Part shown: positions 14,848-52,451 of the stretch, one piece after another
How positions within the stretch are numbered: position 1 is the first letter of the stretch
How the letters are laid out: each line of letters begins with the position of its first letter
Source of the DNA: Planctomycetota bacterium
GTDB taxonomy: Bacteria; Planctomycetota; UBA1135; GCA-002686595
Direction of reading: 5' to 3'
Length of the DNA: 64,000 nucleotides
NCBI GenBank assembly: GCA_021413885.1
Contig: JAIOPM010000032.1
Coordinates: forward strand, 1-64,000
Notes under the pieces: model-generated
The model's input: the letters and a program-made list of their open reading frames with translations, nothing else
Database searches by the model: none
Told to the model about the DNA's origin: nothing
Program-made: the position numbers and the translations under genes

Positions 14848-14852
14848 ATCTG

Positions 14853-17800: not shown

Positions 17801-20063
17801 CAAGTCCAAGCCGGCGCACGTCGATCTGCGCAAACGTTCCGACGCGGAGCTCGTCGAACTGACGCTCGCGAAGAACGATTGGTACGTGCGTCAAGCGCGT
17901 TTGATCCTTGCCGAACGCGCGGCCGGTCCGCGGGTCGAGAGCGCGCTGCGCGTCATTCTCGAACGCAATTCCGATCCGAGTCGGCGACTGCGCGCGTTGT
18001 GGGCATTGCACGCGAGCGGCGGGCTCTCGCAGAAGCTCGCGGCCGCGCAACTTACGTGTCCGCACGAGTACGTCGCCGCGTGGGCCGTTCAGTTGTTGCT
18101 CGAGGACCGCGACGCGCCGACGTGGGTCGTCAACGAACTCGCGAGGCTCGCGCGCACCACGAAGTCGCCGGTCGTGCGCCTCTACCTCGCGTCGGCTTTG
18201 CAGCGGCTGCGTCTCTACGATCGTTGGTCGATCGCCGAAGCGTTGTTGCGGCACGCCGAGGACGCCGACGATCACAACTTGCCGCTGATGATCTGGTACG
18301 GCGTCGAACCGTTGGTGCCCGCCGATCCGAAACGCGCGCTCGCGCTCGCCGACGATTGCGCGATCCCGAAAGTCGCGCGCTTCATCGTGCGCCGTGCGGC
18401 GAACGAAGCGACGTGTCAGGATGCGCTGGTCGACGCGGTGCGCGCCGAGAAGGACGCGGCGAAGCGCGCGTGGATGCTCGACGAGCTCAGCGAAACGCTG
18501 CGCACGAAGCGCGGCCTTGCGGTGCCGAAGCATTGGGCGCCGCTATACGCCGAGCTCGCCGCCGACGCCGATCCGACGGTGCGCGAACGCGGACTCGCGA
18601 TCGCGGTCGCGTACGGCGACTCGGCGGCGTTCGGGGCGTTGCGTGGACGGATCGGCGACGCGAACGCGACGCGCGAGGCGCGTGAGCAAGCGCTCGACGT
18701 ATTGCTCGGCGCGAAGGACAAGGAGCTCGCGCCGGTATTGATCGGATTGCTCGACGACGAGGCGTTGCGCGGCCGCGCGTTGAAGGCGCTCGCGACGTAC
18801 GACGATCCGGGCACGGCGCGGGCGGTGCTCGCGCATTACGGAAAACTCGCGCAGAGCGAGAAACGCGATGCATTGAACACGCTCTCCTCGCGCGCGGCGT
18901 GGGCGAAGGAACTCTTCGCCGCCATCGAGCGCGAAGAAGTCCCGCGCGCCGACCTCGGCGCGTTCGTGCTCCAGAACCTGCGCAACTTGAAGGATCCCGC
19001 GCTCGACGAACTGGTCGCCCGCGACTTCGGCGTCGTGCGCGACACGCCCGAGGCGAAGAAGAAACGTATCGAGGAGCTGAAGGGTTTGATCACCGGCGAG
19101 AAGCTCGAGCAAGCGTCGCGCGCGCGCGGCCGCGAAGTCTTCTCGCGCACCTGCCAGCAGTGCCACTCGCTCTTCGGCGCCGGTGGCAAGCTCGCGCCCG
19201 ATCTCACCGGCTCGAACCGCGCCGATCTCGACTATCTACTCTCGAACGTCGTCGATCCGAGCGCCGTCGTCGGCAAGGAGTACCAAGCGACGATCGTCGA
19301 GCTCAAGGCGGGCCAGATCCTGACCGGCATCGTCAAGCGCGAGAGCGCGGACGGCATCGTGCTCGCGACGGAGAACGACGTGCTCGACCTCGCCGCGAGC
19401 GAGATCGAGACGCGCAAGCTGACCGAGAACTCGGCGATGCCCGAGGGCTTGCTCGATCCGCTCGCGCCCGACGAAGTCGTCGCGTTGGTCGCGTACCTCG
19501 GTAGTCCGACGCAGACGCGGTTGCTCGCGACGGCGGCGAACGCGAAGACGATCTTCGACGGGAAGACGCTCGCGAATTGGACCGGCGATCCCGCGGTATG
19601 GAGCGTCGAAGGAACGGAGATCGTCGGCAGGACCGCGGGCCTCGCGAAGAATTCGTTCCTCGTTTCCGAGCTCGAGCTCGGCGACTTCAAGCTTGCGCTC
19701 GACGTGCGCCTCGCGCACGACGCCGGCAACAGCGGCATCCAGTTCCGCACCGAGCCGCGCCCGAGCGGTGAGGTCCGCGGCTATCAGGCCGATGTCGGTC
19801 CGGGCTGGTGGGGCAAGCTCTACGAAGAGGAAGGGCGCGGGCTGCTGTGGGAGAAGAGCGGCGAGCAACACGTCCTCGTCGACGGTTGGAATCACTACGA
19901 GATCGAGGCGCGAGGCCACCACGTCAAGACGTGGATCAACGGTCAGCCGTGCGTCGACCTCGAGGACCCGACCGGAGCGCTCACGGGCGTCCTCGCGCTG
20001 CAAGTCCACTCGGGCGAGGCGACGGAAGTCCGCTTCCGCAATTTCGAGCTGACGATCCTCTGA
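14853..20063 (+). CDS. Giant FG-GAP propeller + PVC-type haem-binding + HEAT + DUF1080 protein
   Basis: This 1736-residue exported protein has five parts. (1) A signal peptide (GCGALLASVASAG). (2) Residues ~20-400, an FG-GAP/VCBS propeller with Ca-binding Asp loops (DFDRDGQTD, DVDGDGRND, DVDGDGLKD). (3) ~440-600, a jelly-roll-like segment (GDLRDWTRDGGAFDG...). (4) ~621-1540, the PVC-type membrane-bound dehydrogenase domain (PPGFRVELVASEPQ), helical HEAT-like repeats and a cytochrome c site CQQCH near 1433, with a conserved LAPDLTGSNR segment. (5) ~1564-1736, DUF1080, now named the 3-keto-disaccharide hydrolase family (TIFDGKTLANWTG, NSGIQFRTEP). Family knowledge suggests periplasmic sugar oxidation and cleavage of keto-sugars. 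The Met ligand of the haem cannot be assigned with certainty. Confidence 0.9.
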   Translation: MNIVRLPWIGCGALLASVASAGDVTFERLQLSNAFYCEGASFADFDRDGQTDVVAGPFWYRGPDFKEKRPLYEPKSFDPAGYSDNFFAFPRDFDGDSWTDVLVVGFPGEATWWFENPGRKETLLWEKHLVLEHTDNESPTFADLTGDGQPELVCHTGGRLGWAEPNASDPNAPWQWHALSADLQLQRFTHGLGVGDVNGDHRADVLLATGWWEQPASLAGDPEWTSHPFAFSDQYGGAQMYVYDVDGDGRNDVITSMAAHHYGLAWWQRTKADDAVDFVKHEILGSKAEDRLDGVQFGEVHALELVDVDGDGLKDIVTGKRWWSHGAKGDPDGERSKAWLYWFGLTRSGEGARFTPHLVDDDSGVGVQVVAGDVSNDGKVDIVVGNKKGAFVLRQKAKSDAPSAPSTPKTGKGPSEALELDAAQDAGSLPLDADGKPVNTDFETGDLRDWTRDGGAFDGQPVRGDTVTARGREPSLHQGEYWIGGYELHGDGGRGTLRSESFVASQPWASFLIGGGAFHDERVELVRAGDDQVIFRSSAANHESMQRLVVDLSHEVGHTLYLRLVDDATGGWGHLNFDDFRLHATRPTFERAAGVPEILRPDEIVNAGLEAHAAAAAMTVPPGFRVELVASEPQLQQPVAFTFDAKGRLWVAEAFSYPERRPEGQGKDDLVVFEDKDGDGAFETRTTFLERLNLVSGLEVGHGGVWIGAAPYLSFVPDRNDDLVPDGAAEIVLDGFGYQDTHETLNAFTWGPDGWLYGCQGVFTDSNVGAPGTSDDQRVKMNAGVWRYHPTKKRFEVFAWGTSNPWGVDFDDGGQAFITACVIPHLYHVIQGARYERQAGDHFDPYVFDDLKTIADHRHYLGANPHGGNNRSGSAGGGHAHCGAMVYLGDALPDEYRNTIFMSNIHGNRLNNDALVRSGSGFIGEHRDDFVLANDAWFRGIAIKYGPDGAVYFSDWYDKQACHWTEVERWDRTNGRLYRASYGKSKPAHVDLRKRSDAELVELTLAKNDWYVRQARLILAERAAGPRVESALRVILERNSDPSRRLRALWALHASGGLSQKLAAAQLTCPHEYVAAWAVQLLLEDRDAPTWVVNELARLARTTKSPVVRLYLASALQRLRLYDRWSIAEALLRHAEDADDHNLPLMIWYGVEPLVPADPKRALALADDCAIPKVARFIVRRAANEATCQDALVDAVRAEKDAAKRAWMLDELSETLRTKRGLAVPKHWAPLYAELAADADPTVRERGLAIAVAYGDSAAFGALRGRIGDANATREAREQALDVLLGAKDKELAPVLIGLLDDEALRGRALKALATYDDPGTARAVLAHYGKLAQSEKRDALNTLSSRAAWAKELFAAIEREEVPRADLGAFVLQNLRNLKDPALDELVARDFGVVRDTPEAKKKRIEELKGLITGEKLEQASRARGREVFSRTCQQCHSLFGAGGKLAPDLTGSNRADLDYLLSNVVDPSAVVGKEYQATIVELKAGQILTGIVKRESADGIVLATENDVLDLAASEIETRKLTENSAMPEGLLDPLAPDEVVALVAYLGSPTQTRLLATAANAKTIFDGKTLANWTGDPAVWSVEGTEIVGRTAGLAKNSFLVSELELGDFKLALDVRLAHDAGNSGIQFRTEPRPSGEVRGYQADVGPGWWGKLYEEEGRGLLWEKSGEQHVLVDGWNHYEIEARGHHVKTWINGQPCVDLEDPTGALTGVLALQVHSGEATEVRFRNFELTIL

Positions 20064-31987: not shown

Positions 31988-32404
31988 CTACTTCGCGCCG
32001 CGAATCGAGCGCCACGGCTCGTCCTGCGACACATCGATCAACGCCGGCCCGTCGATCACCGCCGGCGAGAGCACCGCGAGGAAGATCACCGGCTCGTCGA
32101 AGACGTTGTACGTGCCGTGGACTTCGTTCATCGGGACGTGCGCGACTTCGCCGGCCCTCAGGATGCGCTTCTCAGGCCCGACCCATTGTTCTGCACGGCC
32201 TTCGACGAAGTAGAGCAACTCCTCCATGCACGGATGGCGATGGAACGCGTGACTCTTCTTCGGCGGCATCTTCACGCGCACGAGTTGGAGGAGCTTCGAA
32301 TCCGTCAGCCCCGCGCGCGCGAGCCACGCGTGCGGGCCCCACGGTAGAACTTCGATCTCCGCCTCGGCGTCGGTGACGAAACGCAGGAAGTGCTGCTCGC
32401 ACAT
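31988..32404 (-). CDS. Cupin domain protein
   Basis: The 138-residue product is a single cupin barrel. Motif 1 reads KKSHAFHRHPCMEELLYFVEGRAEQ (G-x5-H-x-H-x4-E-like, with His57/His59 and Glu64 region), and motif 2 is GEVAHVPMNEVHGTYN with the second His. Metal binding (Fe, Mn or Zn) is likely. It follows the giant ThuA-PVC gene by 7 bp on the same strand, so it is probably in the same operon; a role in handling the sugar-derived product is inference. Confidence 0.82.
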   Translation of the reverse strand: MCEQHFLRFVTDAEAEIEVLPWGPHAWLARAGLTDSKLLQLVRVKMPPKKSHAFHRHPCMEELLYFVEGRAEQWVGPEKRILRAGEVAHVPMNEVHGTYNVFDEPVIFLAVLSPAVIDGPALIDVSQDEPWRSIRGAK

Positions 32405-32411
32405 CGCGCGC

Positions 32412-35400
32412 TCAGCGGCCGAGGACCCAGCGGTACGCGTTCGCGAGCAGACGCCCGAAGTTGGCGTTCTCGTGCGTCGCGCCGTCGTGGCCGAGCGTGA
32501 TGCACGCGGTGCGGCCGTTCTTGCGCGCGACGGTCCACACGACGGGGAACTCTCCGGCGGAGGAACGACCGACAGCGACGACGTGGATCTCCGCGCCTTG
32601 CGGATCACGTTGGAATTCGTAGAGCTCGTCGCTGACCTTGAACGTCGCGGGCAAACCGGCCGCGAGCGGATGCGCCGCGTCGACGACGCGCACTTCGAAC
32701 TCGCCGAACGGGCCGTGATTCCTCGAGCCGCCGCCGACGAGCTCGCGGTTGTACTCGGGCCAATCGGTCCAGTTGAACCAGTTCGCGGGATGGAGCACGA
32801 CGAGCCCGCCGCCGGCGCCGACGAACGCGGTCAAAGCGCGGCGCGCTTCCGCGCCGATCGCCTGGTTGGTCGAGAGCACCAACGCCTTCGCCGCCGCGAG
32901 CGACGTCGCGAGCTCGGCCGTGTCTTCGGTGTAGCGCAACGAACTCGCGCCGGCCGCCTTGAACGTCGCGGAGTCGGTCGCGCCGAACCACTTCGCGAAG
33001 TCGTGGCTCGAACCGCCGCCGACCAGCAGGAGTTCGACGGGCGCGAGCGCTTTCGGAGGTTGGGGCGCGGTCGAGGTCGCGACGTGCGCGCCGGGCAATT
33101 CCGCCGTCAGCGCGACCCAGGTCGGCGCACGGTCGTTGTCGAAGCTCTCGAGCACGACGCTCGCGATCGCGACGTCGCGCTTCGGCGCGAGCGCGAACGT
33201 GCGCAGCTGTCCCGCGCTGTCGTCGCGCACGACGCTTTCGCAGAACACGGAGCCCGGCACGTCGTTGCGGCCGATCCAATCCGCGAACTCGACGCCGTCC
33301 TTCAGCACCACCTCTTCGCTTTGTCCGTCCGCGTACTTCCACGTCCACTTCGCGACCGGCACGACGTCGGGGAAGAACGGATGGCCCCACGCGGCGATGC
33401 CGCCGAGCACGTGGACTTTCGCGACCGCGTAGCCGAACGGGATCTCGACGCGCTGCGGTTGATCCTTGCTCTGCCACTTCGGTTGCGCGCCGCCCTTCAG
33501 GACGACGACGTTCTTCTCGCTCGAGTTCGCGGGATCGAGCACGTCGAACGGCACCCCGTGGATCTCCTGCACGCCCCATTTGACGAGCTCGAGCGCGTTG
33601 GTGTCGAAGCGCGTGTCGTACATCCCCTTGCGCGTCGACGCGTCGACGAACGGACGAAGATCGAGCGTGCGGAACCCCGCGTACGTCGAGCCGAGGTAGG
33701 TGAAGAGATCGCGCAACGCCGGACCGCCGAGGCTCTCGAAACCCGCCGGCATCGGCGTGCGGCCGCTCGACTTCAGCGACACGAGCTCCGCGCGCGGAAC
33801 CTCGACGTCGCCGGTCGCGCTGCGCAACACGATCGACTCCGCGGTGTCGCGCGCGAGCACGCCGGTGAAGATGCGTTCGTCGTCGGTGACCGCGACGTAT
33901 TCGACGTACGCGGCTTCGACGGTGCGGTTCGGATCGAGGACAACGGGCAACAGCTCTTTCGCGCCGTGCGTGCCCATGCCGGTCAAGTCGGGACCGACCT
34001 TGCCGCCTTGGCCGCGGAAAGCGTGGCAACTCGCGCAGTTCGCTTCGAACACCGCGCGACCCGCGGTCGCGTCGCCGGGTTGGAGCACGACGGGCTCGAG
34101 CTCGGCGACCAACTGCTCGATCTTCTTCGCGCTCGCGCCTCCGAGGCGATCGAAGAGTTCCGTCGCGCGCGCGGCGGTCTTCGCGTCGGGGTGGTTGCGC
34201 AACGCGGCGACGCCGCGCGGTCCGAGTTCCTGCGGCGTCAGCGCGCCGGACTCGATCGCGGCGAGCAGCGCTTGCGCGGAGCCCGCGCGCGAAACGATCG
34301 CGCTGAGCGCGAGCTCGCGCGCCGGCCCGCCGAGCGCCGGCAGTCCGCGCACCAACGCGGCGCCCGCGTCGTCGCCGGCGAGTTTCGCGAGCTCTTCGAT
34401 CGCCGTCGCGCGCAAGTCCGGCGCGGCGTTCGGCGCGAGCAGCTTCTCGGCCGCCGTGATCGCGTCGGCGCGACGCGACGGGATTGCGCACAGCAAACGC
34501 AGCGAACGTTGCCGCGCTTCGCCGGTCGCCGATGCGTCGTCGAGCGTGAGCGTCAACTTCGCGCTCGCCGCGCCGAGCGCGGCGTCGAGGCGGCCGTCGT
34601 AGTTCCAACGCGCAGCGAACGGCAACGCCGCGATCGCGTCGTCGGCGGTCGGCGCCGCGGCGAGTTTCCCGAGGCTCGCGAGCACTCCGTCGCTCGCGCG
34701 GAAGTTCGCTTCGTCCTTCCAACCGCGGCCGAGCGTGAGCAACGCCGCCGGAGCGAAACCGCCGGTGCCGCCCGAGCTTTGGCTCGCGTCCGCGAGCCGC
34801 GCGAGGACTTTCTCGAGCTCGCGCACGTCGTGCGAACGCCCGACCGTCGCGCCGACGGCGCCGGCGAGGGTCGCGAGCTCCGCGCGTTTCGGCGACGCGA
34901 GCGCGGCGGCGAGGAACGCTTCGGGATCGTGGACGACCGCGGAGACGATCTCCGAGCGCGACCACGGATCGTCGAGCGTCGCGAAGAGGTCGACGAGGTA
35001 CGGCGCGGCGCCGGCGGCGCGCGACGCGACTTCGAGCGCGACCAACGCGACGCGGCGATCCTTGTCGTAGATCGATTGCTGCCACGGGATCGGCGCGGAG
35101 GTCGGGTACTCGAGCGCCGCGAGCAAACCGTTGCGTCGCAACGCGGCGTCCGCGTCCTTGATGAATTCAGGATGCGCGACGCCGCGTTCGGCGAGCGCCC
35201 ACAACGCGTGGACCTTCGCCGCCGGCGACTTCGCGGTCCTCAGCAGCATCTCGAGCTCGCCCTTCGCGCCGAACGCGGGATCGTCGACGATCATCCGCTG
35301 CGCGGTCATCCGCACCCAACGGTTGTTGCTCTGCAGCGACGCGACGAGATCCTCAGGATCCATGCCCGCGAGCTCCGGCGGCCGGATCTTGCGCGCATCC

Positions 35401-37364
35401 CTGTGTTGCACGCGCCAGATGCGGCCGTGCGTGTGATCGCGATCGGCGCGCAGCGCGGCGTTGGTCGGTCCGTGCTTCGGCCCCCGCGTGTCGTTGTGGA
35501 CGCACGCTTGGTTGTAGAAGTCGAGGACGTAGAGCGCGCCGTCCGGCCCGACGCGCGTGTGCACCGGCCGGAACCACAGATCGCTGCCGGCGAGCAGCTC
35601 CTTGTCCTCCTTGCCCTTCTCCTTGGTCGCTTTGAACGTCGCTCCGTTGCGTTGGAGCAAGTCGAGGTGCACGAGGTTGACCGTCGGTTCGCACACGATG
35701 TGCGCGCCGTCGTACTTCGACGGCCACGCGCCGCCGGTGTAGAGGCAACAACCGGCCGCTCCGGTGAAGCCGCCCACGAAATCGATCTGCGCGTACGGCG
35801 AGAGATCGGAGTGGAAGAGCGGGAACACGCGATCGTGATCGGCGATGTCGGACCACGTCTCGACGCCTTCGAGGCGACCGGCGGCGATCGCGCGCTCGGG
35901 CACGACGACGTGCCGCACGTGCGCACCGTTCGCCATCGTGAAGAAGAGCTCGCCGTCCCAATCGAAGTCGAGACCCCACGTGTTCGAGCCGTAGCTCGAC
36001 ACCATCTCGATCGCGCTGCCGTCGGGCTTGAAGCGGAAGAGCCCGTTGCCGATGCGGCCGAAATGCTTCGCGCCGAAGTCGGGGCCGCTCGACACGTCGC
36101 TCGTGCCGCCGGAGTAGCCCTGCGTCGCGTAGATCCAACCGTCCATGCCCCAGCGCAGGTTCGAGACCACCGCGTGCGTGTCGCCGTAGCCGAAGCCGGT
36201 GAAGAGCGCCTTGCGCTCGTCGCACTTGCCGTCGCCGTCCTTGTCGCCGAGCCACCAGAGCTCCGGCGACGCGCTCGCGATCACGCCGTTGCGATGAAAG
36301 ACGAAACTGGTGACGAGATCGAGCCCGTCGACGAAGTTCGTCGCGCGATCCATCGCGCCGTCGCCGTCGACGTCCTCGAGCACGTCGATGCGATCGTGCG
36401 GCGGCTTCCCGGAGAACTTCGACTTGTCGGGATAGCCCGGCGTCAGCGCGACCCACATGCGACCGCGCGCGTCCCAGTCGACCGAGATCGGCTTGTCGAC
36501 GAGAGGCTCGGCGGCGACGAGATTGAGTTGGAACTCGGGGTCGAGCTCGAGCTTGCGCGACGCGAGTTCCGGTTGGATCGGCCCGCCCGGCGGGTACGCG
36601 AGCGACTTGCGCTCCTCGCCGTCGGTCAAGAGATCCGCGTCGCGTTTCCCGGCCCACGCGATGCCGCGCAAGAGCATCGCGCGCCACGCCGGATGCTCGA
36701 ACGACTTCCAGAGATGGCCTTGGACCGCGACGAACGCGCGGTACGTCGGCTTCTCGACCGTCCACATCTGCGGCTCGATGTCGAAGACGGTGTGCATGCT
36801 CGCGGCGAGCACGTGCACGTCGTCCGCCATGTGCAGCTTGTAGTAGATCTCGTCCTCGAAGATGAAGTTCGACGCGCCGCGCGTGATCGGGTGGTCGAAG
36901 TCTTGGAGGTAGACGCCGACTTGACCGTTCCAGTACTTCGCGACGCCGTCCTCCCACGCGCCGCCGATCACGGTCTTCCACCACTGCGGATCGTCGCCGC
37001 ACAACGCGTCGTGCAGGACGACCAAGCCGCCGCCGCGAGCGAGGAACTTCTCGAGGGACTCGCGCTCGAGCCCATGGATCGAACCGCCGTCGGCCGCGTA
37101 CATCACGAGGACATCGGTGCGCTCGAGCTCCGCCGGCGTCGGGAAACGCGTGGCGCCCGACACCGTCGCGCCGCGTTGGCCGAGCAAGCGCGTCCACTCG
37201 CGGATCCAGAGCGTGTGCTCGTGTTCGTTCGGCCCGTGCGTCTTCGCGCCTCCGCGCAGGAAGATGCGCAACGGCGCGGCGGCGGCGGGTCGTTGAGCCG
37301 ACGCCGCGTTCGCGAGAGAGAGGCAGAAGAGGACGACGACGGCGATCAGCGCTCGGGGACTCAT
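32412..37364 (-). CDS. Giant ThuA + PVC-type haem-binding + HEAT + ThuA protein
   Basis: This 1650-residue protein begins with a signal peptide (ALIAVVVLFCLSLANAASA). Residues ~33-245 are a ThuA-like domain (FLRGGAKTHGPNEHEHTLW, then GGGLVVLHDALCG). Residues ~275-690 form the PVC membrane-bound dehydrogenase propeller (PEFQLNLVAAEPLVDKPISV, DEDVDGDG-like Asp loops). HEAT-like helices follow, and the cytochrome c site CASCH is near residue 1110 with KVGPDLTGMG. A ~200-residue segment of unclear type comes next. A second, C-terminal ThuA-like domain fills ~1440-1650 (GGGLVVLHPANWFNW, FVVWTVARKNGR). The family is tied to 3-keto-sugar or trehalose metabolism. The ATG is preceded by a TAGCAT box. 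A cupin gene follows on the same strand, 7 bp away. Confidence 0.9.
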   Translation of the reverse strand: MSPRALIAVVVLFCLSLANAASAQRPAAAAPLRIFLRGGAKTHGPNEHEHTLWIREWTRLLGQRGATVSGATRFPTPAELERTDVLVMYAADGGSIHGLERESLEKFLARGGGLVVLHDALCGDDPQWWKTVIGGAWEDGVAKYWNGQVGVYLQDFDHPITRGASNFIFEDEIYYKLHMADDVHVLAASMHTVFDIEPQMWTVEKPTYRAFVAVQGHLWKSFEHPAWRAMLLRGIAWAGKRDADLLTDGEERKSLAYPPGGPIQPELASRKLELDPEFQLNLVAAEPLVDKPISVDWDARGRMWVALTPGYPDKSKFSGKPPHDRIDVLEDVDGDGAMDRATNFVDGLDLVTSFVFHRNGVIASASPELWWLGDKDGDGKCDERKALFTGFGYGDTHAVVSNLRWGMDGWIYATQGYSGGTSDVSSGPDFGAKHFGRIGNGLFRFKPDGSAIEMVSSYGSNTWGLDFDWDGELFFTMANGAHVRHVVVPERAIAAGRLEGVETWSDIADHDRVFPLFHSDLSPYAQIDFVGGFTGAAGCCLYTGGAWPSKYDGAHIVCEPTVNLVHLDLLQRNGATFKATKEKGKEDKELLAGSDLWFRPVHTRVGPDGALYVLDFYNQACVHNDTRGPKHGPTNAALRADRDHTHGRIWRVQHRDARKIRPPELAGMDPEDLVASLQSNNRWVRMTAQRMIVDDPAFGAKGELEMLLRTAKSPAAKVHALWALAERGVAHPEFIKDADAALRRNGLLAALEYPTSAPIPWQQSIYDKDRRVALVALEVASRAAGAAPYLVDLFATLDDPWSRSEIVSAVVHDPEAFLAAALASPKRAELATLAGAVGATVGRSHDVRELEKVLARLADASQSSGGTGGFAPAALLTLGRGWKDEANFRASDGVLASLGKLAAAPTADDAIAALPFAARWNYDGRLDAALGAASAKLTLTLDDASATGEARQRSLRLLCAIPSRRADAITAAEKLLAPNAAPDLRATAIEELAKLAGDDAGAALVRGLPALGGPARELALSAIVSRAGSAQALLAAIESGALTPQELGPRGVAALRNHPDAKTAARATELFDRLGGASAKKIEQLVAELEPVVLQPGDATAGRAVFEANCASCHAFRGQGGKVGPDLTGMGTHGAKELLPVVLDPNRTVEAAYVEYVAVTDDERIFTGVLARDTAESIVLRSATGDVEVPRAELVSLKSSGRTPMPAGFESLGGPALRDLFTYLGSTYAGFRTLDLRPFVDASTRKGMYDTRFDTNALELVKWGVQEIHGVPFDVLDPANSSEKNVVVLKGGAQPKWQSKDQPQRVEIPFGYAVAKVHVLGGIAAWGHPFFPDVVPVAKWTWKYADGQSEEVVLKDGVEFADWIGRNDVPGSVFCESVVRDDSAGQLRTFALAPKRDVAIASVVLESFDNDRAPTWVALTAELPGAHVATSTAPQPPKALAPVELLLVGGGSSHDFAKWFGATDSATFKAAGASSLRYTEDTAELATSLAAAKALVLSTNQAIGAEARRALTAFVGAGGGLVVLHPANWFNWTDWPEYNRELVGGGSRNHGPFGEFEVRVVDAAHPLAAGLPATFKVSDELYEFQRDPQGAEIHVVAVGRSSAGEFPVVWTVARKNGRTACITLGHDGATHENANFGRLLANAYRWVLGR

Positions 37365-37446
37365 ATCGAGGGCCGATGCTACGCCGCGCGAGGGGGCGGA
37401 TGAAGTCGGCGCTTCGGTCGAACGCGCGGTCGCGAGCGCGGGAACG

Positions 37447-39060
37447 CTAGTTCGAAGGCTCGCGTTCGTGGTGCTCGACCGCGCCGTTCGAGCCGGGCTC
37501 GCCCTCGGCGAGCGGAGGCTCGACGACCAAGCCGGTGAGACGTTGCCCGAGTCGACGACCGCGCAACACGAGTCCGCCCAAGCTCCGCAGTTCGAGCTTG
37601 CGGGCGATCCGTCCGGCGTGGGCCGCCAGGTTGTGTTCCGACGCCTGGAGGTTCGCGATGTGCTCGTTCAGGCGCGGGCGCTCGCGCTCCAAGTTGGCGA
37701 TGTGACGCAGCAGGTGCGCGCGCTCCCACTCGCGATTCGCGGTGTGACCGGCGAGCGCATCGCGCTCCGCCTCGATCGTCCGCGCGTGGGCGCGCAACGC
37801 GACGAGTTCGGCCGCCAACGCATCGGCGTGAGCACGCAGGTCGTGCGTGTACTCGGCGACGCCGGAGCGCGCGAGCGTCTCCGCCCCGACGACTTCGGGC
37901 GCCGGCTCGAGTTCGCGCGAGCCGTAGTGCTTGCGCACGTTCGGGCTCGCGGCGAGTTCGCGCGCGGTCGCGGCGATCGGCGGCGACGCGTGGACGATCG
38001 GGCACGCGCGACAGAGCTTCGGCGCGTCGCCGGTCTTCAAGCCCGCGCGCAGATTGCGGTACGCGTGGCCGTTCCAGATCTCGGCGAAGCTCTGCGTCCG
38101 CAGGTCGCCCATCTCGAGCTTGTCGTGCGCCAGCGGATGGCGGCAGGCTTGGACGCGGCCGTCGTGGAGCACCAAGAACATCTGATTGGGCGAACGACAC
38201 GGCACCGCGTAGTCCGCGAGATCGGGGTCGAGCACGCGCGTCGCGAGCGCGAGCCTCGCCGCCTCGTCCGCGAACCGCGGCGGCGCGTCGAACTCGACGC
38301 CCAACTCCTCGGCGCGCGCGGCGGCCTCGGCGTACGCGCGGTCGTAGAGCTCCGGCTCCGCGACCGACGACTCGGCGCCTTTCGTCGCGACGACGTGGCG
38401 CGCGTGCACCGCATCGGCGCCGATGCGGCGAGCGAGTTCGACGAACGCCGGGAGCTCGTGAACGTTGCCGCGCGCGATCGCGAAGCCGAGAGACAGACGA
38501 CAGCCGTGCCCATCCGCCGCGCTGCGCCTGAAGTCACCGAGCTTCTCGAGCCCCGCCACGAGCCGTGTCCAACTCGCGCCGACGCGCTGACGCTCGTACG
38601 TCTCGGCCGTGGCGGCGTCGATCGCGATCCGCACGAACGCGATGCGCCGTGCGACGACCTCGGCGATCGCATCGCGCTCGAGGTGCGTGCCGTGCGTCGC
38701 GAGATGGATCTCTTGACCGGCCGCGGCCGCGCGCGTCGCGAAGTCGGCGAAGTGCGTCGAGAACGTCGGCTCGCCGCCGACGGTGAGGAAGAGTTGGGAG
38801 GACCAGGGGAAGACGTCGCGCTCGAGACGCGCGAAGACTTCGGGCGCGAGCGAGACGCTGCGTTCGCCGTGACACGCGGTCGGCGCGAGCGCGTGTTCGC
38901 CGCACAGCCAACACGGACGGCCGCAGGCTGACGCGAGCTGGAGGTACACCTGCGTCGGACGGTGCAGCGCGACGCCGGAACCGAGTCGCAGGGCGCGCAC
39001 CGCCAACTCGGAGTTGCAGCGCTGCTCTACCGAGAAGTGGGGAGGTTCGCGGGTGTTCAT
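37447..39060 (-). CDS. Radical SAM/SPASM-type protein with C-terminal coiled coil
   Basis: The 537-residue product has the radical SAM [4Fe-4S] motif CGRPCWLC (C46, C50, C53), a GGEPTFS motif and a (beta/alpha) core to ~residue 280. A SPASM-like Cys-rich region follows at ~284-355 (VPCRSPNQ, GRVQACRH, LCRACPI). The last ~150 residues are a Leu/Glu/Arg heptad coiled coil with repeated HIANL units, then a basic tail. Family members modify peptides, anaerobic maturation targets or envelope sugars; the substrate cannot be told. No peptide precursor gene is seen nearby. A TAACCT box lies 21 bases upstream. Confidence 0.83.
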   Translation of the reverse strand: MNTREPPHFSVEQRCNSELAVRALRLGSGVALHRPTQVYLQLASACGRPCWLCGEHALAPTACHGERSVSLAPEVFARLERDVFPWSSQLFLTVGGEPTFSTHFADFATRAAAAGQEIHLATHGTHLERDAIAEVVARRIAFVRIAIDAATAETYERQRVGASWTRLVAGLEKLGDFRRSAADGHGCRLSLGFAIARGNVHELPAFVELARRIGADAVHARHVVATKGAESSVAEPELYDRAYAEAAARAEELGVEFDAPPRFADEAARLALATRVLDPDLADYAVPCRSPNQMFLVLHDGRVQACRHPLAHDKLEMGDLRTQSFAEIWNGHAYRNLRAGLKTGDAPKLCRACPIVHASPPIAATARELAASPNVRKHYGSRELEPAPEVVGAETLARSGVAEYTHDLRAHADALAAELVALRAHARTIEAERDALAGHTANREWERAHLLRHIANLERERPRLNEHIANLQASEHNLAAHAGRIARKLELRSLGGLVLRGRRLGQRLTGLVVEPPLAEGEPGSNGAVEHHEREPSN

Positions 39061-39678: not shown

Positions 39679-40890
39679 ATGTCCGTCTACTTGTTCGCCA
39701 CGCTCGACACGAAGGGCCACGAGGCGGAGTTCGTGCGCGCGGCGTTGCGAGCGCTCGACGTCTCGGTGGTGCTGGTCGACACGAGCTGCGTCGGCGCGCC
39801 GCAGGTGAAGGCCGACGTGGCGCGCGAGCAAGTGTTCGAGGCGGCAGGTACGACGCTCGAAGCGCTGCAGAAGCGCGGCGACCGCGGTGAAGCGGTCAAC
39901 GCCGCGGCGCGCGGAGCGACGGCTCTCGCGCTCGCGGCCCACGGGCGGGGAACGCTCGACGGCGTCTTCGGCCTCGGCGGCGGCGCGGGCACGACGATCG
40001 GCACGGCGGCGATGCGCGCGCTCCCGATCGGCGTGCCGAAGTTGATGGTCAGCACGCTCGCGTCGGGCGACGTGCGCGCGTTCGTCGGCTCGAAGGACAT
40101 CTTGATGATGAACTCGGTCGTCGACATCGCGGGGCTCAATCGCATCAGTCGGAGCGTCCTCACTCGGGCCGCGCAGGCGATGACCGGAATGGTGCGCGGC
40201 GGCGCGGCGCAAGCCGGTGACGACAAGCCGCTGATCGCCGCGTCGATGTTCGGCGTGACGACGCCGTGCGTCGAACGCGCGCGAGCGGTGCTCGAAGCGG
40301 CGGGATACGAAGTGCTCGTCTTTCACGCGACGGGGAGCGGCGGACAAACGCTCGAGTCGCTCGCGCGCGAGCGCTTGCTCGCCGGCGTGCTCGATATCAC
40401 GACGACGGAACTCGCGGACGAACTCGTCGGCGGCGTGCTCTCGGCCGGACCCGATCGATTGACCGCGGCGGCCGAGCTCGGCCTCCCCCAAGTCGTCTCG
40501 GTCGGCGCCCTCGACATGGTCAACTTCTGGGCGCGCGCCACGGTTCCCGCGAAGTTCGCGGCCCGCAAGTTCCACGAGCACAATGCGAACGTGACCCTGA
40601 TGCGCACGACGGTCGACGAAAACCGCGCGCTCGGTCGCGAGCTCGGGGTCAAGATCGCGCGCTCGCGCGGACCCGCGAAGATTCTCCTGCCGTCGCGCGG
40701 CGTCTCCGCGCTCGATCGCGCAGGCCAGCCGTTCGACGATCCGGCGGCGCGTCGAGCGCTCTACGACGAAATCAAACGCAGCGCGGACGCCGTGCCCGTG
40801 CTCGAACTCGACCTCCACATCAACGATGCCGCGTTCGCCGACGCCGCGGCGAACGCGTTGCTCGAAATGCTGCGCACGCGCGCGAAATGA
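39679..40890 (+). CDS. Tm-1-like ATP-binding domain protein (UPF0261)
   Basis: The 403-residue product matches UPF0261: the N terminus [20 protein letters not shown], then [37 protein letters not shown], and a C-terminal [14 protein letters not shown]. Glycine-rich loops (GLGGGAGT) fit nucleotide binding. The start ATG 39679 is fixed by the family's conserved beginning. The next gene overlaps it by ATGA and encodes the TIM-barrel partner. In the plant virus-resistance protein Tm-1 these two domains are fused; here they are two coupled genes. Confidence 0.88.
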
Positions 40891-41753
40891 ACATGGCGAC
40901 TCCGAAGCACGACAACTCCCGCACCGGCATCCTCAAACGCCTGCGCGCCCAAGTGAAGCGCGGCGAGCCGATCATCGGCGGCGGCGCGGGCACCGGCATC
41001 TCCGCCAAGTGGGAGGAGAAAGGCGGCATCGACTTGATCGTGATCTACAACTCGGGCCGCTATCGCATGGCGGGTCGCGGTTCGATGTCGGGCTTGATGC
41101 CGTACGGCAACGCGAACCAGATCGTCAAGGAGATGGCGTTCGAGGTGATCCCGGTCGTCGAGCACACGCCGGTCCTCGCCGGAGTTTGCGGCACCGATCC
41201 GTTCATGCTGCCGAAGCTCTTCCTGCGCGAGCTGCGCGACCTCGGCTTCTCCGGCATCCAGAATTTCCCGACCGTCGGCCTCTTCGACGGCAACGTGCGC
41301 CTCAACCTCGAAGAGACCGGCATCTCGTACAAGCAAGAGGTCGAGATCGTGCGGCTCGCGCGCGAGATGGATCTCTTGACGACGCCGTACGTCTTCACCG
41401 ACGAAGAGACGCGTTGGATGGCGGAAGCCGGCGCCGACATTCTCGTCGCGCACATGGGCACGACGATCGGCGGTTCGATCGGCGCGCACACGGTGTTCGG
41501 GCTCGACGACTCGGTGAAGAAGATCAATCGCATGGTCGAAGTCGCGCGCAAGGTCCGCAAGGACGTGTTGATGCTCTGCCACGGCGGTCCGATCGCCGAG
41601 CCCGAGGACGCGCGCTACATCCTCGAGCGTTGTCCAGGCGTCGACGGTTTCTACGGCGCGAGCTCGATGGAGCGCTTGCCGACCGAACGCGCGATCCTCG
41701 CTCAAACGCAGAAGTTCAAGGCGTTGCGCCGCAAGCGTGCGAAGAAGGCGTGA
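40887..41753 (+). CDS. Phosphoenolpyruvate hydrolase-like TIM-barrel protein (Tm-1 C-terminal type)
   Basis: The 288-residue product begins [19 protein letters not shown] and has the motif [45 protein letters not shown], the hallmark of the PEP-hydrolase-like (PF09370) family, with a TIM barrel of ~270 residues and later [11 protein letters not shown] and LCHGGPI segments. The start overlaps the UPF0261 stop codon (ATGA); MATP at 40893 is an alternative. The reaction is unproven for this group; the pair is probably metabolic rather than signalling. Confidence 0.85.
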
Positions 41754-42104: not shown

Positions 42105-42142
42105 CGTTCGCCGCCCTTCGCGCGCATGCTAGCCCTCGACGC

Positions 42143-42148
42143 TACGAT
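42143..42148 (+). promoter_or_regulatory. -10-like box (TACGAT) upstream of the solute-binding protein gene
   Basis: TACGAT lies 22 bases before the ATG at 42171 and partly overlaps the divergent small membrane-protein region. Confidence 0.45.
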
Positions 42149-42170
42149 CACGCGCCCCGAGGTTCCCACG

Positions 42171-43508
42171 ATGAAATCCCCTACCGTTGCGTCGGTCGTC
42201 TGCCTCATGTTCGCGCTGCTCGTCGGCTGCTCCAAGGAAGAGAGCGCGACGCCGACCGGATCCGCCGCGCCCGCCGCTAAGACGCTCGACATCTGGTGGT
42301 TCCAATGGGATCCGGCGACGGGCCTGCAGGAACTCGGGCGCGAGTACGAGAAGGCGACCGGCGTGAAAGTCACGGTCCATCAGATCCCGCTCTCGAGCTA
42401 CCAGGAGAAAGTCTTCCTCGAGTTCGGCAACTCGCGCACGGCGTTCGACATCGTCATCGGCGACAGCCAATGGATCGGTCGAGGCGCGGAGAGCGGCAGC
42501 TACGTCGAGCTCACCGACTGGCTGCCGACCGTCGTCGACCTGAAGACGATCCACGCGCGCGCGGCGAAGTACTTGTGCGAGTACCCGGAGAACAGCGGCA
42601 AGTGGTACGCGGCTCCGTGCGAGACCGACGCGGTCGGGCTCGCGTACCGCAAGGATTGGTTCGACGATCCGAAGGAGCGTGCGGCGTTCCAAGCGAAGTA
42701 CGGTCGCGAGCTCGCGGTGCCGACGACGTGGGACGAATTCGAACAGGTCGCGACGTTCTTCTTCCGGCCCGACGACAAGCGTTACGGCTGCGCGTTGCAA
42801 ACCGGCCGCGCGTACGACGCGTTGACGATGGGCTTGCAGAACTTGTTGTGGGCCAACGGCGGGATGTGGCACGAGGAAGGCTCGTTCCGCGTGAAGGGTT
42901 TCCTCGACACGGCCGGCACCGTCGCGGCGATCGAGAAGTTCAAGGCGCTGATCAAGCTGGGTCCGAAGAAGTCGGAGAACCTCGACTACGGCGAAGTGCT
43001 CGAGGCGTTCAACAACGGCTCGTGCGCGATGATGCTCAACTACTTCGCGTTCTTCCCCGGCGTGCTCGCGAAGTTCGGCGACAAGGTCGGGTTTGCCACC
43101 GTGCCCGCTCAGGACGGCAAACGCATCGCGAGCCTCGGCGGCCAAGGCCTCTCGATCTCGACGCGCATTCCGAAGGAGCAACAGGAGCTCGCGAAAGCGT
43201 TCATCGCGTGGTTCCTGAAACGCGAGACGCAAGAGCAGTGGATCACCAAGCCCGCGGGCTTCACCGCGAACACCGCGATCCTCGGCAGTGCCGAGTTCCG
43301 CGCGAAGACTCCCTACAACGCGCCGTTCGCCGACTCGATCGACACGATGCGCGACTTCTGGAACGTGCCGCAGTTCAACGAGCTCCTCAACGTGACGCAG
43401 AAGTACGTGGGCCAAGCGGTCGACGGACAGATGGACACCCTGGAGGCGCTGCACAAACTCGCCGACGAGAAGGAACGCATCCTGCGCGAGGCGGGGTTGC
43501 TCAAGTAG
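42171..43508 (+). CDS. ABC sugar/polyol-binding lipoprotein (CUT1 type)
   Basis: The 445-residue product has a lipoprotein signal (ASVVCLMFALLVGC) and the family-1 extracellular binding-protein fold: LDIWWFQWDPATGLQELGREYEKATGVKVTV, followed by GNSRTAFDIVIGDSQWIG and the hinge-domain segments, ending with a QFNELLNVTQKYVG helix. It should deliver a carbohydrate or polyol to the permeases 4.6 kb downstream (48106-49841) and the ATPases at 53785-55898. Its TAG stop overlaps the convergent histidine-kinase gene by 8 bp. Confidence 0.88.
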   Translation: MKSPTVASVVCLMFALLVGCSKEESATPTGSAAPAAKTLDIWWFQWDPATGLQELGREYEKATGVKVTVHQIPLSSYQEKVFLEFGNSRTAFDIVIGDSQWIGRGAESGSYVELTDWLPTVVDLKTIHARAAKYLCEYPENSGKWYAAPCETDAVGLAYRKDWFDDPKERAAFQAKYGRELAVPTTWDEFEQVATFFFRPDDKRYGCALQTGRAYDALTMGLQNLLWANGGMWHEEGSFRVKGFLDTAGTVAAIEKFKALIKLGPKKSENLDYGEVLEAFNNGSCAMMLNYFAFFPGVLAKFGDKVGFATVPAQDGKRIASLGGQGLSISTRIPKEQQELAKAFIAWFLKRETQEQWITKPAGFTANTAILGSAEFRAKTPYNAPFADSIDTMRDFWNVPQFNELLNVTQKYVGQAVDGQMDTLEALHKLADEKERILREAGLLK

Positions 43509-48105: not shown

Positions 48106-48981
48106 GTGGCGAATCACGAGCGCGCGCCGATCCGTTGGGCCTTCGTGGCTCCGACGTTGATCCTGTTGATCGCGTTCAACGTCTTTCCGCTCGTCTACAA
48201 CCTCGTCCTTGCGTTCACCAACGCGCAGCTCGTCGGCGGAACGACGCGCGGCATCGGCGGCGCCAACTTCGCGCGCGTGTTCGCCGAGCCGGAGTTCGCG
48301 GGAGCGGTGCGCCTGACCGCGCTCTTCGTGTTGCTCGCGGTGTCGATCGAGCTCGTGCTCGGCTTCGCCGTCGCGCTCGCGCTGCGCCGCGACTTCCGCG
48401 GCAAGACCGTGGTGATGACCGCGTTGCTCGTGCCGATGATGTTGTCGCCCGCGGTGATGGGCCTCTTCTGGAACCTGATCCTGAACGGCAACTACGGGAT
48501 CTTGAATCAGACGCTCGCGGCGCTCGGCCTTCCGCAACCGGAGTGGCTGACCGTCGGCGCGTTGAAATTCACGTCGATGTTGATGATCGACGTGTGGATG
48601 TGGACGCCGTTCATGATCCTGATCGCGCTCGCGGGACTGAACGCGATCCCGCCCGCGATCTACGAAGCGGCCGAGATTGATCGCGCGAGCGCCTGGACCG
48701 TCTTCCGGCGCATCACGTTGCCGCTGTGCGCGCCGTTGCTCGGGCTCGCGGTCCTGCTGCGCACCACCGACGCGCTCAAGCAATTCGATCTCGTGATGGC
48801 GATCACCGGCCCGAACGACGAGAACACGCAGACGCTCTCGACGTTGCTCTACCAGGTCACGTTCCGCGACGGAAAGATCGGGCTCGGGAGCTCCTTCGCC
48901 TGCGTCGTCCTCGTGATCGTGATCGCGGTGGCGACGGTGTTCACGCGCTACATGGAGCGGATGCAACGGAGGCCGGCGTGA
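48106..48981 (+). CDS. CUT1-family ABC permease, first subunit (MalF/UgpA-like)
   Basis: The 291-residue product has six hydrophobic helices and the MalF-type EAA loop EAAEIDRASAWTVFRRITLP. The usual Gly is replaced by Arg (DRAS), a variation also seen in other CUT1 permeases. It pairs with the next gene (GTGA overlap) to form the channel for the binding protein at 42171. The ATP-binding proteins are at 53785 and 54858. Confidence 0.9.
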   Translation: MANHERAPIRWAFVAPTLILLIAFNVFPLVYNLVLAFTNAQLVGGTTRGIGGANFARVFAEPEFAGAVRLTALFVLLAVSIELVLGFAVALALRRDFRGKTVVMTALLVPMMLSPAVMGLFWNLILNGNYGILNQTLAALGLPQPEWLTVGALKFTSMLMIDVWMWTPFMILIALAGLNAIPPAIYEAAEIDRASAWTVFRRITLPLCAPLLGLAVLLRTTDALKQFDLVMAITGPNDENTQTLSTLLYQVTFRDGKIGLGSSFACVVLVIVIAVATVFTRYMERMQRRPA

Positions 48982-49841
48982 AGCTCGCGCGACGCCTCGT
49001 GATCGGCGCGTACCTCTTCGCGGCGATGCTACCGCTCGTGTGGATGGCGCTGTCGTCGTTCAAGACGCGCGACGATGCGATTCGGCCGCATCCCAACTTC
49101 GTGCCGGCGGCGACGGCGAGCGCCGATCCGCGCGCCATCACGTTCGAAGCGACGCTCGAGAACTACACCGAGCTCGCCGACGTCCACGTCGGTGCGCAAG
49201 CGAGTTTCCTCGAGCACTTGGGCAACAGCCTGATCGTCGGACTTTGCAGCACGCTCGCCGCCGTCGCGCTCGGCACCGCCGCGGCGTACGGCTTCTCGCG
49301 CTTCGAGTTCGCGGGCAAGAAGGACTGGCTGTTCTTCATCCTCTCGACGCGCTTCATGCCGCCGCTCGCGGTCGTCGTGCCGGTGTTGATCATGTACCGC
49401 ACGCTCGACCTGCAAGGCACGCATCTCGGATTGATCTTGCTCTACACCGTCTTCAATCTGTCGCTCGCGGTGTGGTTGATGAAGGGCTTCATCGACGAGA
49501 TCCCGCGCGCGTTCGAGGAAGCAGCTTTGGTCGACGGCTACTCGCGCCTCGCCGCGTTCCGGCGCATCATCCTTCCGGAAGCGCGCACCGGCATGGCGGT
49601 CACTGCGGTGTTCTGCTTGATCTCGGCGTGGAACGAGTACGGCTTCGCGATGACGCTCAACGCGTCGGGAGCGATCACGGTCCCCGCCTACTTCGCCGGA
49701 CTCCAAGGCAACATCGCCGGCATGCCGTGGCCGCAGATCGCGGCGGGAGCGCTGATCTTCGTCGCACCGATCGTGCTCTTCACCGTGCTCGTCCGCCGCC
49801 ACCTGCTGCGCGGCATGACGTTCGGGACGATCAAGCAGTAG
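48978..49841 (+). CDS. CUT1-family ABC permease, second subunit (MalG/UgpE-like)
   Basis: The 287-residue product has six helices, the periplasmic loop of MalG-type subunits and the EAA loop EEAALVDGYSRLAAFRRIILP. Its GTG start overlaps the stop of the first permease (GTGA), so the two are coupled. The TAG stop is followed 7 bp later by a convergent gene, so the ATPases are not in the same transcript. Confidence 0.9.
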   Translation: MKLARRLVIGAYLFAAMLPLVWMALSSFKTRDDAIRPHPNFVPAATASADPRAITFEATLENYTELADVHVGAQASFLEHLGNSLIVGLCSTLAAVALGTAAAYGFSRFEFAGKKDWLFFILSTRFMPPLAVVVPVLIMYRTLDLQGTHLGLILLYTVFNLSLAVWLMKGFIDEIPRAFEEAALVDGYSRLAAFRRIILPEARTGMAVTAVFCLISAWNEYGFAMTLNASGAITVPAYFAGLQGNIAGMPWPQIAAGALIFVAPIVLFTVLVRRHLLRGMTFGTIKQ

Positions 49842-50943: not shown

Positions 50944-52155
50944 TCACGCCTCGGCGAAACCGCGCAGCGTCTGGTCGGCCCACGAGATCGCGGCGACATA
51001 CGCTTCGTTGAGTTCGACGAAGTCGAAATCCGCGAGCTCTTCGCCCTGCCAATCCGCGCGTTCACACGCGAGCGCCGCATCGAGCACGACGCCGAGTTCA
51101 CCGGTGCGCTTGGTCAACGCGGCGCCGATGTCGTCGGTCAACGGGAGCTTCGCGATCACGCGCTCCATCGGCTCGTCGAGGAACGCGTCGAGGACCGAGA
51201 AGAGCCCGACGAGGAAGTGCTTCTGCGGATCGCCGTCGCGCGTCGCGCCGAGCAACTGACAGTACCGGGCGCGGACCAGCGCGGTCGTCGACAACTCCGC
51301 CGGCTTGTCGGACGCCGCCGCGAGGATCATCAGCGTCGCGCAGGTGCGCACGCGCTCGACGCCGAGCATGTGCACCGCGTCGCGCAGACGCGAGATGTGC
51401 GCTTGCCGACCGATCGCGGCGGAGTTGACGTAGCGCACGAGTCGGTGCGCGAGCGTGATGTCCTTCTGCACCAACGCCGTGATCCGTTCGGGCGTCGCCT
51501 TGGGATCGTTCAACTCGGCGAGCAGCATCATCAAGCGCGCGCGATCGCCGGAGAGCGCTCGTCCGCGCACCGGCGACGGACGCGCGAAGAAGTAGCCCTG
51601 GAAGAGCTCGAAGCCCGAGTCGACGCAGGTGTCAAAGGTCTCTCGCGTCTCGACCTTCTCGGCGAGCAAGCGCCGGCCCGTCGGCCGCAACTGGGCCGCG
51701 ACGCGCTCGATCTGCTCGCGATCGCGGCCGTAGACATCGACCTTGATCATGTCGCACTCGGCGATCAGTCCCGCGTTCCGTTCGTCGAGTTCGAAATCGT
51801 CGAGGGCGATACGGAAGCCGCGCTGACGCGCATCGCGCATCGCCGCGAGCACCGGCTCCTCCGCCGTGACGTCCTCGAGGACTTCGATCACGACGCGCTC
51901 CGGCGGCAACGAAAGGAACGCGCGCGTCACGAGGAAGTCGCGCGAGACGTTGATCCACGCGCGGCTCGAACCGATCAACGTGTCGAGTCCGACGTCGAGC
52001 AACGCGCGCACGATCACGCTCGCGGTCGCTTGGTCCGCTCCGTCGACGAGCGCCGCATGCTCGTCGGTGCCGCGGAAGAGCAGTTCGTACCCTGCGACGC
52101 GCAGATCCCGATCGAGGATCGGCTGACGGGCGAGCAACAGCGGGAGCTCTGACAT
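50944..52155 (-). CDS. EAL-HDOD protein with degenerate EAL domain
   Basis: The 403-residue product has an N-terminal EAL-like domain (residues ~5-205) and a C-terminal HDOD domain (~205-395: LVQKDITLAHRLVRYVNSA and RDAVHMLGVERVRTCATLMIL). In the EAL domain, the EAL motif is GYELLFRG, the ALDDFG(T/A)GYS region is ALDDFELDERN, and the usual EGVE reads EKVE, so c-di-GMP hydrolysis is unlikely. The architecture is that of YuxH/CdgJ-type proteins that act in motility or signalling without phosphodiesterase activity. No signal peptide. Confidence 0.88.
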   Translation of the reverse strand: MSELPLLLARQPILDRDLRVAGYELLFRGTDEHAALVDGADQATASVIVRALLDVGLDTLIGSSRAWINVSRDFLVTRAFLSLPPERVVIEVLEDVTAEEPVLAAMRDARQRGFRIALDDFELDERNAGLIAECDMIKVDVYGRDREQIERVAAQLRPTGRRLLAEKVETRETFDTCVDSGFELFQGYFFARPSPVRGRALSGDRARLMMLLAELNDPKATPERITALVQKDITLAHRLVRYVNSAAIGRQAHISRLRDAVHMLGVERVRTCATLMILAAASDKPAELSTTALVRARYCQLLGATRDGDPQKHFLVGLFSVLDAFLDEPMERVIAKLPLTDDIGAALTKRTGELGVVLDAALACERADWQGEELADFDFVELNEAYVAAISWADQTLRGFAEA

Positions 52156-52451
52156 GCGCAACGCGCGACGCCCGGAGACGAGCGACTGCGCCCCCTTCTC
52201 GACCACGACCCGGCGCCGCCTTCAACCTAAGATGCCTCGGAATCCGCGCGCGCAAGCGCGTCGCGAAACCTGCCGCGCACGGCACACTCGCCCGTCCGGG
52301 CGCGCGCGCCTCTTCACGAATCCGCACGAAAGTTCCAGTCGGGCGCTGCGCGAAGGGCGGAGACGCGGACAATCCGGCCGGTTCGCGGATCGCGGTCGCG
52401 ATTCCCGTAAGCTCCGCGGTTCATCCAACCCCATTTCCAAGGAATCCAGAC

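Follow-up and report, generated by a model that had tools for sequence, protein, structure and literature searches.

A large propeller–cytochrome protein with two different ThuA domains, and its company with the bacterial counterparts of the Tm-1 halves, in Planctomycetota and Verrucomicrobiota

The window analyzed here, a 64,000-nucleotide stretch of a Planctomycetota bacterium (assembly GCA_021413885.1, contig JAIOPM010000032.1), carries on its minus strand a giant gene, an open reading frame (ORF) with an ATG start and exact coordinates (Table 1), whose product joins a ThuA-like domain at either end to a beta-propeller and a cytochrome c. Loci, genomes and contigs carry our own labels (L, G and C); G000 is the window's own draft genome, in 62 contigs and 87.6% complete. 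With hmmscan, the ThuA profile PF06283 is found in two stretches of the protein (E value 9.8e-55 for the whole protein), together with DUF7133 and a cytochrome c stretch at residues of about 1098-1133, and two NCBIfam models score above their cut-offs, TIGR02604 at 278-653 (271 bits against 122.2) and TIGR02603 at 1097-1226 (83.7 bits against 68.15). A long antisense ORF (32373-37403, plus strand) overlaps the giant gene and is probably a GC-rich shadow frame, because relatives keep the minus-strand protein. Three such relatives, in named metagenome-assembled genomes (L014-L016), have an equal domain order at 77-78% identity over the best segment, and L110 and L112, whose contigs come close to the length of their genome, have the same order, which rules out an assembly or frame artefact.

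Table 1. Features of the giant gene and its surroundings (positions in the window; residues of the giant protein)
Feature	Position	Strand	Basis
Whole gene: ThuA1–DUF7133 propeller–middle region–cytochrome c–beta-sandwich–ThuA2, 1650 aa	32412-37364	-	ORF and Pfam/NCBIfam profiles
Signal-peptide-like N terminus, residues 1-24 (basic start, hydrophobic stretch, AASAQ)	37293-37364	-	By eye
N-terminal ThuA (ThuA1), residues 32-262	36579-37271	-	PF06283, 89.9 bits; predicted fold as 4e5v
DUF7133/TIGR02604 beta-propeller, residues 265-656	35397-36572	-	Profiles and structure matches
Middle region, residues 657-1096	34077-35396	-	Without Pfam match
PVC-type cytochrome c domain, residues 1097-1226	33687-34076	-	TIGR02603; 7zs0; invariant C, C, H, M
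Beta-sandwich between cytochrome and ThuA2, residues 1229-1427	33084-33680	-	Structure match 8gs1
C-terminal ThuA (ThuA2), residues 1441-1650	32415-33044	-	PF06283, 110.9 bits; predicted fold as 4e5v
Small cupin directly downstream of the giant gene	31988-32404	-	Cupin_2, 2.3e-14, in ORF 31988-32608
Radical SAM/SPASM protein between giant gene and UPF0261	37447-39060	-	Pfam scan
UPF0261 protein	39679-40890	+	PF06792, 2.6e-60; PF23189, 1.6e-89
PEP_hydrolase-like TIM barrel PF09370 (TBST)	40893-41753	+	PF09370, E 7.6e-126 at G000:C31:40929-41723
Sugar-type ABC importer, solute-binding protein	42126-43508	+	SBP_bac_1, 1.8e-34
Two ABC importer permeases (48106-48981 and 48726-49841)	48106-49841	+	BPD_transp_1
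Two MalK-like ABC ATPases (53689-54861 and 54858-55898)	53689-55898	+	ABC_tran with OB_MalK

The initial annotation had placed a ThuA-like domain at both ends of the chain, and profile and predicted fold alike bear this out; the outcome that would have refuted it, one region without the ThuA fold, did not occur in the models. Each copy, scored alone, lies far above the PF06283 cut-off of 33.4 bits. AlphaFold models, built on alignments that combine the window protein with those of fetched loci (23 sequences in all), cover residues 26-690 (predicted local distance difference test score 83.4, predicted template modeling score 0.84) and 1085-1650 (81.9 and 0.53, respectively). In these models, the best PDB match of either end is the ThuA-like structure 4e5v (ThuA1: Z 22.9, root-mean-square deviation [rmsd] 2.6, 219 residues aligned; ThuA2: Z 21.5, rmsd 2.8, 201 aligned), placing a predicted class I glutamine-amidotransferase-like fold at both. 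The residue set of the ThuA family (H, DE, W, R and GH) is likewise present twice, as the ThuA1/ThuA2 pairs H118/H1525, D171-E172/D1579-E1580, W201/W1610, R209/R1618 and G216-H217/G1625-H1626, with Y174/Y1582 besides. Across 46 ThuA1 and 48 ThuA2 domains (a table without the odd rows of L119, L159, L086, L087, L156 and L157), no domain lacks the first His, the Asp or the Gly, and the Glu is found in 98-100%; the last His is kept in 91% of ThuA1 (91-100% over both sets), the Trp in 100% of ThuA1 and 88% of ThuA2, and the Arg in 100% and 79%. A further His, H1550, is invariant in the 48 ThuA2 and in 28 other ThuA domains and has no counterpart in ThuA1 (V141), and since conservation differs in this way, the sequences suggest that the two copies have differing roles.

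The two copies also differ in ancestry. A tree of 131 ThuA domains groups 46 N-terminal copies in one clade (support 99/93) and 44 C-terminal copies together with four stand-alone ones (L027, L033, L118, L119) in a second (100/99), with the other ThuA domains outside both. By this tree ThuA1 and ThuA2 are of separate ancestry, and a recent internal duplication is ruled out by the separate clades and by the low identity of the two window copies (49 of 198 aligned positions). The labels T1, T2 and G came from purpose-built hidden Markov models (HMMs) and did not force the tree, as the mismatches indicate: L086 and L087 (T2) and the larger L119 gene (T1) lie among other N-terminal ThuA domains, while the T2 of L159 lies beside another ThuA and its partial T1 branches off basally on the T1 side. 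Fifteen near-identical, duplicate or truncated loci were left out of the tree (L022-L026, L030, L036, L038-L042, L044, L070, L071). ThuA matches occur in G000 at three places, the two ends of the giant ORF and one frame on contig 1; this third ThuA (C1:18323-19594, L001) is fused with a 3-keto-disaccharide hydrolase domain in a single frame of 521 aa.

Between the two ThuA domains lies an oxidoreductase-like core. A CxxCH motif at residues 1110-1114 (34023-34037) supplies C1110, C1113 and H1114, which are invariant in 23 sequences, as is M1205, the probable axial heme ligand. The heme c site expected at the outset is thus upheld and, with TIGR02604 and TIGR02603 both above cut-off, the protein belongs to the PVC-type heme-binding CxxCH proteins. 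The cytochrome model matches a diheme cytochrome of Kuenenia (7zs0, Z 14.3), and the modeled beta-sandwich matches AziU2/AziU3 (8gs1: Z 16.8, rmsd 2.4, 162 aligned, 14% identity). The signal-peptide-like N terminus, judged by eye, suggests that the protein is probably exported, in line with the location outside the cytoplasmic membrane proposed in the initial annotation. The propeller, as modeled, has the fold of a quinoprotein sugar dehydrogenase, with 3a9g as best match (Z 26.6, rmsd 3.1, 285 aligned), followed by the sugar dehydrogenases 2ism (Z 25.7), AA12 (24.7) and E. coli Asd (2g8s, 24.5), and also 7cgz; the DFPase and SMP30 propellers come close behind (Z of about 22).

The two-ThuA order, which the initial annotation had suggested looking for elsewhere, recurs in both Planctomycetota and Verrucomicrobiota. 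A first scan of genome contigs gave 33 loci, and a profile of the sandwich and ThuA2 was then run on 392 Planctomycetota and 288 Verrucomicrobiota genomes, matching 19 of the former at E up to 1e-40 (16 over ThuA2, three over the sandwich only) and 15 of the latter. By purpose-built domain HMMs, ThuA1, propeller, cytochrome and ThuA2 lie in one frame in 51 of the 67 loci examined; with two exact duplicates removed, this leaves 49 of 65 distinct other loci, several of them closely related to one another. Three two-ThuA loci (L045, L116, L117) lack the sandwich. Among the 16 loci without the complete order, six are truncated where their contig ends (L036, L038, L039, L042, L043, L044), L079 has the C-terminal half only, with an in-frame stop reported for its profile match, and nothing but the propeller is present in L046. 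The frames of L085 and L120 lack ThuA2, those of L086 and L087 begin with a different N-terminal ThuA and lack a C-terminal copy, and L118 and L119 have a stand-alone ThuA2-type gene. In the remaining two, ThuA2 is a separate gene (L027:8505-9329, L033:6320-7042) directly downstream of a protein of 1472-1504 aa that lacks it, and these split genes have, by eye, a lipoprotein-like or signal-like start. In L119 (3742-11584), the stand-alone gene overlaps a ThuA-propeller frame of 1060 aa, with PF09370, cupin, glycerate kinase and UPF0261 genes beside it.

A further 20 Planctomycetota ThuA loci were fetched, picked for long open frames among the matches listed. ThuA, propeller and cytochrome share a frame in L146-L150 and L152-L155, and weakly in L157, several of these ending in the sandwich, and the remaining ThuA loci lack propeller, cytochrome or both. 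Single-ThuA PVC-type cytochromes, which the initial annotation had taken as known, are therefore real, and because such frames occur, the two-ThuA protein looks like the known single-ThuA layout extended C-terminally by another ThuA.

An unexpected result concerns two intracellular partners, UPF0261 and the PF09370 barrel (TBST). Counting as carriers those genomes whose profile match covers ThuA2 (G119 via a C-terminal half, G638 via separate genes) and PF09370 at E up to 0.001, the barrel is found in 16/16 Planctomycetota carriers against 79/376 other genomes (nominal Fisher p 5e-11) and in 15/15 Verrucomicrobiota carriers against 7/273 (4e-20; 5e-19 without the center genome), that is, in 31 of 31 carriers against 86 of 649 others. 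Within the window's own family the counts are 10/10 and 4/12 (p 0.0017), or 2/12 for strong matches only (p 1e-4). UPF0261 is likewise encoded by 31/31 carriers, against 5/41 hand-picked, non-random non-carriers. Adjacency follows the same pattern in Planctomycetota, where 16 of 18 two-ThuA loci have UPF0261 and/or PF09370 in the fetched flank; L075 and L083 have neither, L076, L078 and L079 have PF09370 without UPF0261, and L072 has UPF0261 only. Among 24 control ThuA loci without the two-ThuA order (L142-L161, L085-L087, L120), a partner is adjacent in one, and likewise in 1/14 of those that combine ThuA, propeller and cytochrome in a single frame, a contrast somewhat flattered by shorter flanks (about 5 kb or less in L142-L161, about 7-9 kb at most two-ThuA loci). 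The sole positive control is L147 (G016:C158), a single-ThuA propeller-cytochrome protein with both UPF0261 and PF09370 adjacent. At 17 loci, 95 of the 111 neighboring ORFs (up to 620 aa) were scanned with Pfam, which placed PF09370 in 12 of them, UPF0261 in nine, Cupin_2 in eight and glycerate kinase in two (L114 and L119); each of the 25 best families listed that does not overlap these four had one or two members. The two glycerate kinases are a weak hint at a three-carbon product. The giant protein is thus coupled to UPF0261 and PF09370 by distribution and often by adjacency, together with a cupin and, in some loci, an ABC importer.

We read the giant protein as a probably exported, heme c-coupled multidomain oxidoreductase with two different ThuA domains that would form the outside half of a catabolic pathway, and we see the chances of this reading as evenly balanced. 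The propeller would draw electrons from a sugar, or from a compound derived from one, to reduce the heme; at the same place, the oxidized (keto) sugar may be bound or acted on by one of the ThuA domains or by both; and the product, once imported, would be degraded intracellularly by UPF0261, the barrel and the cupin. We infer this order of events, as well as the substrate and the reactions of both ThuA domains, UPF0261 and PF09370; UPF0261 proteins are ATP-binding. That the whole would be an undescribed pathway, in which the oxidized sugar product of the periplasmic ThuA-propeller-cytochrome-ThuA enzyme is imported and cleaved by UPF0261 and PF09370 with help from the cupin and, in some loci, a glycerate kinase, we hold a shade less probable than this reading. 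If true, the plant antiviral protein Tm-1 would have bacterial relatives with a metabolic role. The distribution itself hints at one degradation pathway shared by the giant protein and the Tm-1-half proteins; the partner signature is unusually sharp (31/31), which makes a test of function possible, and a single pathway assay could inform both. Another point for the pathway is that the window's own genome fuses a ThuA with a 3-keto-disaccharide hydrolase domain. The initial annotation had imagined a self-contained sugar-oxidizing machine; self-containment is not supported, with ThuA2 a separate gene in L027 and L033 and both partners encoded in all 31 sampled carriers.

Several observations weigh against this pathway, and those that concern the propeller and the ThuA domains are given with the alternatives below. 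The Fisher tests treat related genomes as independent, and relatedness inflates all of them. In the sampled Verrucomicrobiota, partners are adjacent in only 8 of 14 fused loci (L105, L106, L107, L112, L113, L114, L116, L117); L110 and L111 have the cupin only, L019, L108, L109 and L115 have nothing, and the L119 locus, with its separate ThuA2, has UPF0261, PF09370 and cupin all adjacent. Among first-scan Verrucomicrobiota loci with both ThuA domains, many of them on short contigs, partners are adjacent in 1 of 22 (L045), L019 being counted in both sets. PF09370 is also widespread in genomes that lack the giant protein, and of 20 PF09370 loci hand-picked from the 79 PF09370-positive Planctomycetota non-carriers, two (L163, L180) have a ThuA or propeller gene close by. 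A constant association of PF09370 with a ThuA or propeller gene is ruled out by this count, and because the barrel occurs in this way on its own, the dependence looks one-way.

A serious alternative, which we rate somewhat below the pathway proposal, is that the propeller is not a pyrroloquinoline quinone (PQQ) dehydrogenase but has another enzymatic activity or cofactor, the heme carrying the electrons of a different reaction. The PQQ-dependent sugar dehydrogenase profile PF07995 has no match in the giant protein at E up to 1 (hmmscan), and a PF07995 search of G000 matched four other places, the giant gene not among them. When the PQQ site is mapped by eye on an alignment of low local confidence, a His close to the catalytic position is kept together with a single Asn and a single Arg, while equivalents of Arg228, Lys377 and Arg408, which we take to be PQQ-site residues in the numbering of soluble glucose dehydrogenase (sGDH), are absent. 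The propeller instead has an invariant set of its own in 23 rows, including alignment positions H598 N599 D600 T601 R602 G603 and R617 D618 H619 (window residues 623-628 and 642-644), and DFPase and SMP30 score nearly as well as the sugar dehydrogenases. A search for the biosynthetic gene pqqC gave no match in G000 (87.6% complete), where its control was silent, or in any of 15 Verrucomicrobiota carriers. The Verrucomicrobiota search, which doubled as the positive control, finds the gene in 8 of 288 genomes, and given these few positives the absence amounts to no significant exclusion (Fisher p 1.0). Covering G000 and the 288 Verrucomicrobiota genomes, these results do not speak for synthesis of PQQ by the carrier cells themselves; PQQ can also be scavenged. 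On the other hand, the top structure matches are sugar dehydrogenases, and hhalign of the propeller to E. coli YliI and 22 GSDH relatives gives a probability of 98.8 (E 5.8e-16). We do not claim a PQQ dehydrogenase by family membership, given the missing profile match, the site mapping and the pqqC result. Of the sugar-oxidizing role first proposed, the resemblance to PQQ-type sugar dehydrogenases stands; sugar oxidation by the giant protein, judged from sequence and models, is unproven.

A reading in which both ThuA domains serve as carbohydrate-binding modules without catalytic activity, holding a sugar chain at either end of the protein and leaving the action to the propeller alone, is in our estimation unlikely. 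Such a role has precedents that count against catalysis: in passages of one study, the ThuA-like domain of the surface protein SGBPlev binds levan (PMC7618045), and parts of another present a ThuA/GATase-like domain of Agd3 as a carbohydrate-binding module (PMC7229062). The loss in ThuA1 of the His that ThuA2 shares with other ThuA domains points the same way. However, the large conservation of the family residues at both ends and the genome's own fusion of ThuA to a 3-keto-disaccharide hydrolase domain speak against it. A chance fusion or assembly error is refuted by the 49 distinct other loci from many assemblies, some on near-genome-length contigs, and by the two ThuA clades, and has next to no probability left.

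Compared with known systems, the giant protein and its proposed pathway share features with several. PVC-type CxxCH proteins (TIGR02604/TIGR02603; DUF7133) likewise have a propeller, a long middle region and a cytochrome towards the C-terminal end, and forms with a single N-terminal ThuA (L146-L150, L152-L155) have frames of about 1430-1590 aa; the window protein adds a ThuA of another clade after cytochrome and beta-sandwich, and differs from them in partner adjacency (16/18 Planctomycetota loci against 1/14). The founders of the ThuA family belong to the rhizobial trehalose thu operon, and rhizobial ThuA is a single-domain protein. Profile, fold and family residues of PF06283 are common to both ends of the giant protein, which, unlike rhizobial ThuA, looks exported and carries two different copies around an oxidoreductase in one chain. 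With the soluble PQQ sugar dehydrogenases (sGDH, Asd/YliI, PF07995), it appears to share the propeller fold, the His, one Asn and one Arg (mapping by eye), but not the profile match or the other site residues, and it is fused to ThuA and cytochrome. Planctomycete-type cytochromes with extra domains are abundant in these phyla, and a work that treats the PSCyt/PSD types gives, in the portion available, no known function for them (PMC5615132). A parallel in plan is the periplasmic 3-keto-lactose pathway, in which, by excerpts of the source, LacABC is the oxidase and DUF1080 the hydrolase (PMC9007349); like the scheme proposed here, it oxidizes outside, processes the keto sugar and uses the products, but its main text does not mention ThuA.

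The partners themselves lead to plants and fungi. Sections of a study of Tm-1 describe UPF0261 and TBST as the two halves of this plant protein and suggest a role beyond virus resistance without identifying it (PMC5028733). In the bacteria considered here, its N-terminal half corresponds to the intracellular partner UPF0261 and its C-terminal half to the intracellular partner TBST, but the two are separate genes, and no antiviral role is implied. We take COG5441 and COG5564 to be UPF0261 and TBST. In fungi, these two are a top functional pair predicted by phylogenetic profile, according to passages of one report (PMC8963296), which fits their joint occurrence here. Searches of the open-licence literature found no paper combining "PVC-type heme-binding" with ThuA, and no title or abstract on a two-ThuA protein. 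Relative to known PVC-type ThuA cytochromes, the giant protein stands out by its second, different-clade ThuA and by its strict company with the Tm-1 halves.

Relatives of the cupin recur beside the counterpart of the giant gene in L014, L015, L016, L028 and L045, and relatives of the solute-binding protein lie near that counterpart in L014, L015, L028, L073 and L077. For the radical SAM/SPASM protein, the other loci searched yielded relatives in L014, L015 and L016 only. The UPF0261 protein has PDB relatives in 3wry (Tm-1) and 9mpy, and the PF09370 barrel is 67% identical to the TBST of L028. From gene order alone, the MalK-like ATPases may serve the same importer as the solute-binding protein and permeases. 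Elsewhere in the window, a PF06439 3-keto-disaccharide hydrolase domain (19542-20051, plus strand) ends an ORF of 1864 aa (14469-20063); G000 as a whole has 15 PF06439 matches, 13 of them above cut-off. Beyond the window, a frame of 1158 aa (G000:C31:72027-74138) combines a weak GSDH match (72027-72416) with PF06439 at 72990-73598 and 73626-74138. The window also encodes an EAL and HDOD signaling protein (50944-52206, minus strand).

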